This document shows positions 275-36,657 of a DNA stretch of 36,657 nt, piece by piece. Within the stretch, counting starts at the first letter, position 1; every line of letters begins with the position of its first letter. This DNA comes from a virus, in IMG/VR virus record IMGVR_UViG_3300030385_001022, positions 1 to 36,657 of that record; one strand, given 5' to 3'. The notes under the pieces are model-generated. The model was not told where the DNA came from. It saw nothing but the letters and a program-made list of their open reading frames with translations, and did not search any database. Both the position numbers and the translations under genes were made by a program.

Positions 275-300
275 AAAGGCATTTGACACATGCCTTTTTT
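275..300 (+). terminator. Rho-independent terminator after portal operon
   Basis: A perfect 8-bp stem, AAAGGCAT with ATGCCTTT (275-282 and 290-297), has a 7-base loop and runs into a T tract. It closes the terminase-portal operon. The loop contains a perfect TTGACA, discussed under the overlapping promoter. Confidence 0.88.
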
Positions 301-311
301 ATTGGTAACTT
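283..311 (+). promoter_or_regulatory. Candidate promoter overlapping the terminator
   Basis: TTGACA at 283-288 lies in the terminator loop. Seventeen bases later comes TAACTT (306-311), a poor -10 that is preceded by TGG, which makes an extended -10. It would drive the accessory cassette starting at 343. The -35 is perfect, but the -10 matches only three of six consensus bases, so this is tentative. Confidence 0.4.
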
Positions 312-342
312 ATTAAAACTAATTTTACAAAGGAGAGTAACA

Positions 343-1068
343 ATGAATAAATTAAACAAAGAATTATTAGCTCGTGCGTTGGTTGAAGTTGTTAATTTTG
401 AAGCAGATGAGTCATACATCTATTTAGCTGCAAGGGAAAATGAGCTTAGTGGCTTTCATGTATCATGTCATCAAGAAAGTAATTACTGGCAATACGTATG
501 CACAAAAGAGGAATACTTAGCAGCTAAAGCGGAGCAGGAAAAGACGCTTTCAATAGGCGATAACTATGAGTTTAGCGATAACAATATTGACTGGGAGATT
601 GGGAAGCTACTTGCGATAAGCTCAGACGTACCGCTTACTTATTTTTCTAAATACAATAACCATTATGAATGGTACGCATTTATTCGTCAACCGAAAGAAG
701 TAGACAATGAAGCACAACCAGTATTCACACAAGCTATGGCTGATGCTGGAGAGTTGCCGCAAGTTGGTATGGAATGTATGATTTTGAATACTAACTGCTC
801 TCGCCCTAAATACATAAAAGGACTAATAAAATATATTGGAGATTTGATGATTTATGCTTATGTTGATAGTGGCGAGCGTTGCGATAACGTAAAAACCCTT
901 AAATTCAAACCTATCGACACAAGAACCGACAAAGAGAAAGCTATTGAAGAGGCAATTACCAACTTAATGTTTTATGGAGATCAAACCCAAACATCACAAA
1001 AAGCAAATGAAACACTAATAGCAATAATGGAAGGTAGAATAACTGCCGTTAAATGGGTGGGTAAATAA
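343..1068 (+). CDS. Phage accessory protein, 241 aa
   Basis: The start is set by AAGGAGAG about 7 bases before ATG 343; upstream in-frame codons would run through the terminator. The protein is 241 residues, with a Tyr/Trp-rich N-terminal half, a middle segment FTQAMADAGELPQVGMEC (about residues 130-150) of a type I recall from accessory proteins of Gram-negative phages, and a Lys/Glu-rich helical C-terminus after TDKEKAIEEA. There is no signal peptide or membrane segment. It is the first of four genes joined by TAATG or TGATG overlaps and bounded by terminators, so it was probably acquired with them as a unit. Function unknown. Confidence 0.8.
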   Translation: MNKLNKELLARALVEVVNFEADESYIYLAARENELSGFHVSCHQESNYWQYVCTKEEYLAAKAEQEKTLSIGDNYEFSDNNIDWEIGKLLAISSDVPLTYFSKYNNHYEWYAFIRQPKEVDNEAQPVFTQAMADAGELPQVGMECMILNTNCSRPKYIKGLIKYIGDLMIYAYVDSGERCDNVKTLKFKPIDTRTDKEKAIEEAITNLMFYGDQTQTSQKANETLIAIMEGRITAVKWVGK

Positions 1069-1262
1069 TGAAATATTTAATTATAATTTTAATTACTATT
1101 TTTGCAATGTTTAACACTTCATTCTGGGTGTTTAGCGAGGTCTACATGCACAATGGTTCAATGATTGATGGATTAATTGAAGGTACTATTGTTTCTTCTT
1201 CATGTATTTTGCTGGGGTTCGCTATTGGGAAGTTAATGTCATTGTTATGGGTAGTTGAATAA
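1068..1262 (+). CDS. Two-helix membrane protein, 64 aa
   Basis: ATG 1068 shares its A with the preceding TAA (TAATG), so translation is probably coupled. There are two hydrophobic segments: residues 3-22 (YLIIILITIFAMFNTSFWVF) and about 41-61 (IVSSSCILLGFAIGKLMSLL). A short polar loop with an acidic patch lies between them. It is predicted to be an inner-membrane protein. Being followed directly by a lipoprotein gene, it could form an envelope complex with it. Holin-like size is noted, but lysis genes lie elsewhere (28.9-30.2 kb), so superinfection exclusion or another envelope role is a better guess. Confidence 0.75.
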   Translation: MKYLIIILITIFAMFNTSFWVFSEVYMHNGSMIDGLIEGTIVSSSCILLGFAIGKLMSLLWVVE

Positions 1263-1522
1263 TGATTAAACTATTGCCATTAATATTATTAAGCGGCTGC
1301 TCACTAACTAGCGAGCACGACGAATACTTAGATAGAATTGACTCAGTAACTATGGGTGACAGCTATCGATTAGTATTGGCTAAGATTATTGACAAGCCTT
1401 TTGTTTCTAATTGCCGCAGACCTGTCAACAGTCATATTTGCAATGTTGTTTACGCTACTTCAGACACAGATAAAATTGTACTTACTTTTAACGTTGATAA
1501 AAAACTAATTGGAATTTACTGA
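1262..1522 (+). CDS. Small lipoprotein, 86 aa
   Basis: A 12-residue hydrophobic leader ends in a lipobox, Leu10-Ser11-Gly12-Cys13, with Ser at +2, a residue compatible with outer-membrane sorting. The mature part is about 74 residues with two further cysteines (NCRRP and HICNVV) that could pair. The segment VTMGDSYRLVLAKIIDKP faintly recalls the 'MT.G.. V..ilG.P' pattern of BamE/OmlA-like lipoproteins, but this is weak. The ATG overlaps the previous stop as TAATG. Phage-encoded lipoproteins are often superinfection-exclusion factors; that role is an inference. Confidence 0.78.
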   Translation: MIKLLPLILLSGCSLTSEHDEYLDRIDSVTMGDSYRLVLAKIIDKPFVSNCRRPVNSHICNVVYATSDTDKIVLTFNVDKKLIGIY

Positions 1523-1677
1523 TGAAGACTTATAAATCAAGCGACCTTACTCATAAGCGTGCAGAGGTTTTAAGGGAAGCCAAGCTTAACGGTGTAATTA
1601 TTCAAGAGCGAAACACTAATGGTGAGGTAAGGTGTGAATACGTGATTATATCTAAGCAGAAATACATAGATTTATAG
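1522..1677 (+). CDS. Phd/YefM-like small protein, 51 aa
   Basis: Starts at ATG 1522, overlapping the lipoprotein TGA (TGATG), and ends at TAG 1677. The sequence reads TYKSSDLTHKRAEVLREA, then GVIIQERNTNGEVRCEYV and IISKQKYIDL. This order (a Ser/Asp 'SSDL' helix, an 'EVL.EA' helix, a 'V.I' strand, a charged turn, a 'viis...Y' end) resembles the N-terminal DNA-binding half of Phd/YefM antitoxins. No toxin gene follows; a terminator does. It may be a stand-alone regulator or a phage anti-toxin. The fold call is from pattern only. Confidence 0.65.
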   Translation: MKTYKSSDLTHKRAEVLREAKLNGVIIQERNTNGEVRCEYVIISKQKYIDL

Positions 1678-34525: not shown

Positions 34526-36622
34526 ATGGCAGACGATAAAGAAAATAAAGAGCATTTAAGCTGGTTGAATCAATTAAGTAATTTCCAAAAATCAGACTTA
34601 GACCAGCGCGAACAAGCTAGAGAGTCAGACAGATTTTTACTTGATAAAGATGGTCAGTGGGATGACGCAACAATTAGACAGCTAGATTCGCAGCAACGCC
34701 CAAGATATACCTTTGACCAAGTAACACCAGTTATTGAAAATATCATGGCCGATATTGAAGATATGGAGTTTGGCTCAAGCGTCAAGCCTTCAGGTGGTGA
34801 TGCAACAAAAGAATTAGCTAAAACATATGAAGGCATGATAAGAAGTATCGAGGCAGATTCCAACGCAACATCCATTTATCGAAGCGCATGCCGAAGGTTA
34901 ATTCGCCGAGGCTTTGACGCATGGATAGTTAAAGCTAAGTTTAAAGATGAATGGAGTTTTGACCAAAGCTTGGTTGTTGAGGCTATACCAAACGCAATTA
35001 ATAGAGTTTGGACCTCAAACACAGCATCATCACCTGATAGTTCAGATAGCGATGTGGCTTATGTTCTGACCTCAGTTTCACCAGAAGAATATAAAAGTCA
35101 ATTCCCTAAAGGCTCAGCAATTAGCATTGGAGATTCAGATTTAAGTACAAACTTAGACCAGTATTCACCTACAGTGATTGTGTTTGGTGAAAAGTATTAC
35201 AAAAAAGAAACTACTCGCGAGGTTTGTCAGCTATCAAACGGTGAGATAGTAGAGAAAAACGAAAACTTTAAAAAGGTTGTTGATGAATACGCAGAGCAAG
35301 GAATAGTACCTGTTCGTGAAAAGAAAGTTCGCGACTTTAAAATATATCACAGGTTCTTTGATGGTGGCGGCATGCTATCCAAAGAAAGAGAAACAGTATT
35401 TAGAACATTAAATGTTGTAACTGTTTATGGTAATCATGAACTGCTTGGTGAATCATCAAAGATTACTTATTCCGGCATAACTTTAAAGATGATGGATTAT
35501 CAGCGAGTGTTCAACTCAGGTAAATCAAGAGAGATCGAAGAGGGCGCACTGGCTCCGCGTAAAAAACTTGTTATGACTAAGCGTATGGCAAAAGGCAATG
35601 AGGCTCAAATATCAGCGCTCAATGTTAGTGCTGACCCCGTACTATTTGTTACACCTGATTCTGAATGGACTGCCGGTGTTCAGGAGATAGGAGGTGCACA
35701 AGTAAATCCTAATTTAGCAAACTTGGCTAATGATATGGCTATTGGTATGCAAACAACTGGAGGCACAAACAATGCTATGAACGGTCAGTATGCGGGAAGA
35801 ATGTCTGAAGATGCTTTGCGTATGCAGATTGATAGAGGAACAGGAGCAACCCGTAAGTGGGTCAACTCTTTAGTTCACGGCATAAAAAGAACGTGTGAAA
35901 TATTAGTGCAAGCAATTCCTTCAACTTACGATACCAAGCAACAATTTATGATCCTTGGTGCCGATGGCGCTGAAGAAATGGTTATGCTAAACGATGAAAC
36001 TTACGATAAACAAACGGGTGAAATGGTAAGGGTTAACACATTGAACAAAGGCCAATACAAAGTATTCTGTGATGCAGGCCCAGCATTTGCCAACAAGATG
36101 GAGGCAGGACTATCTGCAATGTTAAACTATGCGGCAATTGATCCGTCTATCGTTCAAACTGGCGGTGATTTAATGCTCAAGAGTATCGATGCTCCACTAA
36201 TGGACGAAATGGCAGCACGTAAGCGAGCGCAGATATTGCAAGCAGGAATGATACCTCAAGACCAAATGACAAATGAAGAAATGGCAGCAGCACAAGAAGC
36301 AGCACAACAGCCACAACAAGAAGATCCTGTTGTTATGATTGAACGAATGAAAGAAGAAAATATCAAGCTTGCAAGAGAAAATGATGCTGTTAAAAATCAG
36401 ATTGAAGTTGCTAAGATGCAAGAAAGTTCAAACATGAGCACGCAAAAACTTCAAAGTGACATATTGGTTAGCGCTAGAACAATCGAACAAAACCAAGAAA
36501 AGATTGACAACGAGGCAAAAGATAAGTTTATGAAAAACGCTATCGCTATCGCCGAGCTAGAATTTAAAACTCAACAGGAGCAGAACGCCAACATACAATC
36601 TAACTTACAGATAACTCAATGA
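34526..36622 (+). CDS. Portal protein, P22-type
   Basis: ATG 34526 after AAAGGG; an in-frame TTG at 34520 is less likely. 698 residues, close to P22 portal (725). The N-terminus has LLDKDGQWDDATIRQLDSQQ then RPRYTFDQVTPVIENIMADI, typical of the P22 portal family. The C-terminus (from about 600) is a Gln/Met/Ala-rich helix (EEMAAAQEAAQQPQQE) like the portal barrel. It forms the dodecameric vertex for packaging and tail attachment. Its last codons are repeated at the window start. Confidence 0.95.
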   Translation: MADDKENKEHLSWLNQLSNFQKSDLDQREQARESDRFLLDKDGQWDDATIRQLDSQQRPRYTFDQVTPVIENIMADIEDMEFGSSVKPSGGDATKELAKTYEGMIRSIEADSNATSIYRSACRRLIRRGFDAWIVKAKFKDEWSFDQSLVVEAIPNAINRVWTSNTASSPDSSDSDVAYVLTSVSPEEYKSQFPKGSAISIGDSDLSTNLDQYSPTVIVFGEKYYKKETTREVCQLSNGEIVEKNENFKKVVDEYAEQGIVPVREKKVRDFKIYHRFFDGGGMLSKERETVFRTLNVVTVYGNHELLGESSKITYSGITLKMMDYQRVFNSGKSREIEEGALAPRKKLVMTKRMAKGNEAQISALNVSADPVLFVTPDSEWTAGVQEIGGAQVNPNLANLANDMAIGMQTTGGTNNAMNGQYAGRMSEDALRMQIDRGTGATRKWVNSLVHGIKRTCEILVQAIPSTYDTKQQFMILGADGAEEMVMLNDETYDKQTGEMVRVNTLNKGQYKVFCDAGPAFANKMEAGLSAMLNYAAIDPSIVQTGGDLMLKSIDAPLMDEMAARKRAQILQAGMIPQDQMTNEEMAAAQEAAQQPQQEDPVVMIERMKEENIKLARENDAVKNQIEVAKMQESSNMSTQKLQSDILVSARTIEQNQEKIDNEAKDKFMKNAIAIAELEFKTQQEQNANIQSNLQITQ

Positions 36623-36657
36623 CCGAAAAACTAGTGGTCATTAAAGGCTATAAGTTA
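36533..36657. repeat. Terminal direct repeat, right copy (circular overlap)
   Basis: Same 125 bases as 1-125 with one difference (G at 36610 versus T at 78). The circle closes here; unique length is 36532 bases if one copy is removed. Confidence 0.95.
36619..36657 (+). CDS. Partial 5' end of the 60-aa post-portal protein
   Basis: The first 13 codons of the small gene that is complete at 87-269, starting within the portal TGA. It is cut by the window edge and is a duplicate created by the circular overlap. Confidence 0.85.
   Translation, partial: MTEKLVVIKGYKL

Follow-up and report, generated by a model that had tools for sequence, protein, structure and literature searches.

The genes at positions 343–1677 of the window, which is the 36,657-nucleotide viral record IMGVR_UViG_3300030385_001022 analysed over its full length, probably constitute a self-contained accessory operon that is inserted in the head operon and represses itself, in a manner resembling acr-aca operons but with a repressor of the Phd fold. 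Comparison of sequences establishes an insulated unit, a predicted Phd fold for its last gene product (D), a putative operator and the co-variation of this operator with D. With less confidence, the products of the other three genes (A, B and C) may be host-interaction proteins that are exchanged between phages and serve counter-defence, host takeover or a change of the envelope; this reading draws on the resemblance to acr-aca operons, on the exchangeability of the cargo and on single cases such as a PagP-like enzyme.

The window comprises the whole virus record of a P22-type short-tailed phage, with a coat protein that matches P22_CoatProtein (PF11651, E = 1.8e-49) and a scaffold protein belonging to PHROG 8865. 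The ends of the record (1–125 and 36533–36657) form a 125-bp repeat with one mismatch at position 78, which makes the genome either circular or permuted, one base being variable. All window features described here are located on the + strand. The gene directly 3′ of the portal gene (87–269) codes for a 60-aa protein, which is 40–75% identical in relatives with and without cargo, where it likewise follows the portal; it is the conserved left neighbour of the slot and not part of the cargo. The four open reading frames of the block are all found where they were originally predicted, with 241, 64, 86 and 51 residues, and consecutive frames overlap by one base each. Gene A (343–1068) codes for a mosaic cytosolic protein, gene B (1068–1262) for a protein with two predicted membrane helices, gene C (1262–1522) for a putative lipoprotein, and gene D (1522–1677) for a DNA-binding protein of predicted Phd/YefM fold, the candidate autorepressor and the hallmark of the slot. 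In agreement with the proposal that the block has its own upstream and closing terminators, terminator-like hairpins are present at 275–297 and 1693–1714. The former is a Rho-independent terminator hairpin closing the portal transcript, with a −35 box in its loop, while the latter closes the block and occurs at the same place in many relatives. Before the scaffold gene, a candidate promoter read from the sequence (TTGTAT-18-TATAAT, 1748–1777) would restart transcription; similar sites are observed both in relatives with the block and in relatives without it.

The −35 box in the hairpin loop (TTGACA, 283–288) is kept across loci. It is followed, at a spacing of 17 bp, by a −10 box TAACTT (306–311), which is weak (a match at three of six positions) and extended by a TG in the preceding TGG, and by an operator-like palindrome, TTAAAA-CTAA-TTTTA (313–327), at the expected transcription start. 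The promoter claim of the original prediction is weak when judged from one sequence, because a generic promoter scan performs no better than chance (12 sites found, 12.7 expected), and becomes strong upon comparison with relatives. In most relatives carrying the 51-residue protein a terminator hairpin holds TTGAC or TTTAC in its loop, and in most relatives the −10 box reads TATATT. The centre of the palindrome lies 37.5 nt from where the −35 box starts; at this position 3.6 of 5 arm pairs are formed, which none of 2000 shuffles attains. The complete promoter/operator element occurs once in the window (283–327), is present in nearly all D loci whose leader is in view, and is absent from all 12 inspected slots that lack D. 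Spurious automatic calls of the element were discarded (L033, L050, L053, L068 and L086), as were the first automatic picks for L071, L073, L077, L085, L092 and L095; these six loci, when re-read by eye, show palindromes, the clearest of which are TTAGAA-TTAG-TTCTAA in L071 and TTAGATT-A-AATCTAA in L085. In L031 and L075 gene D directly follows the promoter, and these two loci may represent a minimal autoregulated unit.

The block had been taken for an inserted moron because P22/Sf6-type phages place the scaffold gene right after the portal gene. This arrangement is borne out: zero genes separate portal from scaffold in P22 and Sf6, where the gap measures 13 nt in each case, and the two genes also adjoin in Shewanella phage ZP9 and in Vibrio phage 234P9 (gap of 114 nt), the closest isolate with 66% coat identity. 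The adjoining genes in these four phages mark 343–1677 as an insertion, and the block has the attributes of a moron, with its own promoter and terminators, a position between morphogenetic genes and absence from close relatives. Comparison of the portal-scaffold interval across 46 coat-related viral contigs reveals that it is empty in many of them, while others contain various small genes. The set of genes A, B and C does not recur among these contigs; the cargo is swapped and only gene D recurs, so that the four-gene block as a single conserved unit was rejected. The finding named beforehand as one that would speak against an inserted moron, all four genes in most relatives, is therefore not what the contigs show. 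A profile search finds D in a further 53 viral contigs. In at least 40 of these, D is flanked by a portal gene on the left side, by a scaffold or coat gene on the right side, or by both, and this position holds even where the portal protein is only 20–30% identical to that of the window. In a few contigs D is found behind the coat gene (L081, L082) or ahead of the terminase genes (L056, L084, L095). Since genes are present 3′ of D in many relatives, D is not always the last gene of the unit.

The proposal that the 51-residue protein is Phd/YefM-like and most likely the regulator of the block agrees with its predicted structure. An AlphaFold model of D, based on 47 homologues, has a pLDDT of 94 and a strand-helix-helix-strand-strand-helix topology, and its best 24 PDB matches in a Foldseek search are all Phd/YefM antitoxins, with the DNA-binding domain of P1 Phd ranking first; entry 3hs2 superposes on the model with a TM-score of 0.74 and an rmsd of 1.5. 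By predicted structure, D thus has the DNA-binding fold of the Phd/YefM superfamily. At the sequence level the relationship is distant: the window protein does not match PF02604, the curated cut-off not being reached, the L030 homologue scores 12.5 bits against a cut-off of 29.8, and PF02604 matches 10 of the 47 homologues, with a best E-value of 6.5e-4. Conservation is confined to codons 1–44, the DNA-binding part, with abrupt edges, and nucleotide identity falls to about 0.28 on either side (after codon 45–50 at the 3′ side). Within this part the identities at codon positions 1, 2 and 3 are 0.77, 0.82 and 0.51, respectively, which places the conservation at the protein level; the candidate explanation that D is only a recombination site at the DNA level was rejected because the third position is far less conserved than the other two. 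A conserved C-terminal toxin-binding segment was not found in the D family, in which the tails are unrelated. Searches with three different family members do not find D in 50,697 phage records, nor does a search with one family member find it in plasmids, and one degenerate pattern from the D alignment finds no match in the GTDB genomes scanned, which does not prove its absence there.

Operator and D change together. Proteins starting with YKSSDLTHKR pair with TAAAA-CTAA-TTTTA, those starting with FNASDLSKKP with CTGA-CTAA-TCAG (six of six), FNAFQLNQSD with TTAGA..TCTAA, YKSSDLTNNKR with TGAAA-CTAA-TTTCA, and YNQSALS with ATCCATTAACGGA, the last in two phages whose units occupy different places in the genome. 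Over 32 loci the distances between D proteins correlate with those between operators (r = 0.83), and a partial Mantel test that controls for the phage backbone gives r = 0.82, with a permutation p of 2e-4 that treats the loci as exchangeable, which is a simplification. Joint switches of D class and operator are observed within three backbone groups (L034 versus L003 and the window, L097 versus L064 and L049, and L098 versus L055 and L062). The pairing was also examined by blind scans of 2.9 million viral contigs with exact DNA patterns of core promoter plus operator. The class-2 pattern CTGACTAATCAG is found in six stretches, all on contigs with a class-2 D. The class-1 pattern AAAACTAATTTTA is found in 11 stretches, of which eight are on known D contigs and two on new contigs, both with a previously missed D homologue downstream (MKTYKLSDLIHKREELF...); the remaining stretch is without hairpin, −35 box or D and is evidently a chance occurrence.

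The cargo is highly diverse. The 205 proteins encoded near D fall into 105 sequence clusters, including 77 singletons. Gene A, which matches phrog_3483 (E = 1.6e-9) in its middle and C-terminal part, is related to genes in the slots of L096 and L100. The description of B and C as a two-helix membrane protein and a lipoprotein is supported by two hydrophobic segments in the 64-residue protein and a lipobox, LSGC, in the 86-residue protein. No PHROG or Pfam family above noise was found for gene B or gene C, and C is also without relatives among isolate phages and viral contigs. The fold model of C is poor (pLDDT 46), and its alpha-alpha-beta-beta-beta arrangement has too low a confidence for use. 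Recognisable cargo of other loci includes a PagP-like lipid A enzyme (L069), an HNH endonuclease (L051), a GroES-like protein (L079), DUF3307 membrane proteins and a small lipoprotein (L034). Matches in Pfam, PHROGs and NCBIfam include no anti-CRISPR families, and the cargo proteins do not match known counter-defence families.

The presence of a membrane protein next to a lipoprotein had suggested a superinfection-exclusion or envelope-modification pair, with D as its regulator. The lipobox and the two hydrophobic segments are in keeping with such a pair, as are the lipid A enzyme and the other lipoprotein in the slots of L069 and L034, but genes B and C have no detected relatives and do not match Cor or other exclusion families, and we regard this function as unlikely. 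In particular, the 86-residue protein bears no similarity in PHROGs or Pfam to Cor-type exclusion lipoproteins (PHROG 1119 or related), and a Cor-like exclusion lipoprotein was dropped as a candidate. Less likely still is a role of D as a phage-borne decoy antitoxin, which would counteract abortive infection by host Phd-Doc or YefM-YoeB toxins rather than act primarily as a repressor, its variable tails matching different toxins. The Phd fold would suit this role, some D tails have a Phd/YefM-like S-K-x-x-Y end, and Phd homologues of archaeal viruses that inhibit a host Doc toxin have been described (PMC11065993). However, the toxin-binding C-terminal part is precisely the part of D that is not kept, the L100 homologue even ending at residue 48, which makes a decoy less likely, and for a decoy one would not expect a link between D type and a promoter palindrome.

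The Phd-like protein without a toxin could also be the remnant of a toxin-antitoxin locus that has lost its toxin. No toxin family is found among the 141 slot proteins scanned, though, and selection acts on D at the protein level in at least 53 contigs, which renders such decay highly improbable. An intact toxin-antitoxin locus was rejected, as a cognate toxin gene next to D is absent and no conserved tail exists. Promoter, operator and D could, finally, be merely co-inherited as one piece of DNA, with a palindrome that is not the binding site of D. These elements are close together on a unit that is exchanged between phages and, with 60–1400 bp between operator and D, linkage could contribute to their correlation. 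However, the promoter spacer adjacent to the operator, which served as a control, does not vary with D type (partial r = 0.08), and the cargo families located between operator and D are common to different operator types, so that the block is not simply inherited as a whole; mere co-inheritance is considered very unlikely.

For the autorepressed operon, the following course of events is envisaged. As the sequence shows, transcription of the portal gene runs into a terminator that holds the −35 box of a new promoter in its loop. The operon behind this promoter encodes three exchangeable cargo proteins and ends with D, and the second terminator closes it. A dimer of D may then bind the palindrome, which would span the start of transcription, and shut the promoter once enough D has accumulated. 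As D would repress the unit while accumulating, the cargo would be made in a pulse, with a burst shortly after the DNA has entered and little expression thereafter, an effect that Aca proteins have on anti-CRISPR operons.

The resemblance to acr-aca operons extends to several features, including small unrelated proteins, a promoter of their own, a core promoter that contains an inverted repeat, and a small DNA-binding protein that is encoded in the operon and usually follows the cargo (PMC9410906). Aca proteins bind inverted repeats in the core promoter of acr-aca operons, and Aca1–10 have helix-turn-helix motifs (PMC9410906). By sequence comparison, the palindrome described here is likewise a core-promoter inverted repeat matched to its regulator, but the putative repressor has the Phd/YefM fold and not a helix-turn-helix, and the block contains no known anti-CRISPR. 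Because of this non-Aca fold and cargo, the block is classified as working like an acr-aca operon and not as a member of that group. With Phd/YefM antitoxins such as P1 Phd and E. coli YefM, D shares the DNA-binding fold and a palindromic operator, in its case predicted, at its own promoter, but it differs from them in having neither a toxin partner nor a conserved toxin-binding tail and in scoring below the PF02604 cut-off. Like the present unit, morons of lambdoid and P22-like phages are extra genes that lie between morphogenetic genes, bring a promoter and a terminator of their own and are missing from relatives; the unit differs in being defined by a dedicated, putative autoregulator with a co-varying operator and in being spread over very different phages. 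ADG.17 (SMV1 gp44) is also a solitary Phd-family protein in a virus, but it has retained a toxin-contacting residue and has been assayed against Doc, whereas D keeps only the DNA-binding part (PMC11065993). No description of the D unit was found in the open-access literature.

Tentatively, and with somewhat more doubt than confidence, the 51-residue family may represent a new class of Aca-like guardians, with a Phd fold instead of a helix-turn-helix, that occurs in many uncultured short-tailed phages and whose cargo consists of undiscovered counter-defence or host-takeover proteins. If so, the promoter/operator and Phd pair would be a sequence bait for such cargo. Small, fast-evolving and difficult to recognise, counter-defence genes have been found largely through their association with conserved helix-turn-helix regulators. 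D, with its different fold, its matching operator and its fixed genomic slot across very different phages, would be a concrete bait, by which about 100 cargo clusters are already in hand, most of them without any family. The D-operator pairs, with their several natural specificity classes, also lend themselves to clean tests of repressor-operator co-evolution.

Several further observations concern the slot and the 5′ end of D. In Pseudoalteromonas phage H6/1 (KX257490, 4789–5478; L119) the same slot holds four small genes on the minus strand, including one for a 48-aa protein whose sequence suggests a small helix-turn-helix protein. In L026 (4538–5189, minus strand) it holds another Phd-like gene (VKIFTAEEFNKSPKKVF...) and an 82-aa lipoprotein, which resembles the 75-aa lipoprotein of L034. 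Whatever gene precedes D, it often overlaps the start of D by exactly 14, 4 or 1 bases (loci L049–L100), which suggests that translational coupling has been rebuilt many times. A membrane-protein reading frame just 5′ of D in L086 (614–730) begins with MKTYKSSD, as D itself does, and looks as if the 5′ end of D has been duplicated onto another gene; recurring fused starts are also seen in the MNNxEKLLRAFIEAQG cargo family.

The 5′ leader of the scaffold gene contains an H-type pseudoknot (AGGT taa CGTTAC / ACCT aaa GTAACG, 1785–1810) before the scaffold start at 1838. Its architecture recurs in 37 of 38 relatives, among them Sf6, Vibrio phage 234P9, ZP9 and H6/1, versus 17% of shuffles, with 28 different stem-pair sequences; the P22 leader has a weaker version, and the element has no match in Rfam. 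The scaffold protein of P22 autoregulates its own synthesis after transcription, and the pseudoknot could be the RNA site of this autoregulation. It is followed, at 1811–1837, by a conserved GGCTTAAAT and by another small hairpin, of which the Shine-Dalgarno region forms part and which is also seen in relatives, for example as CGTCTTGGAGACG in L031.
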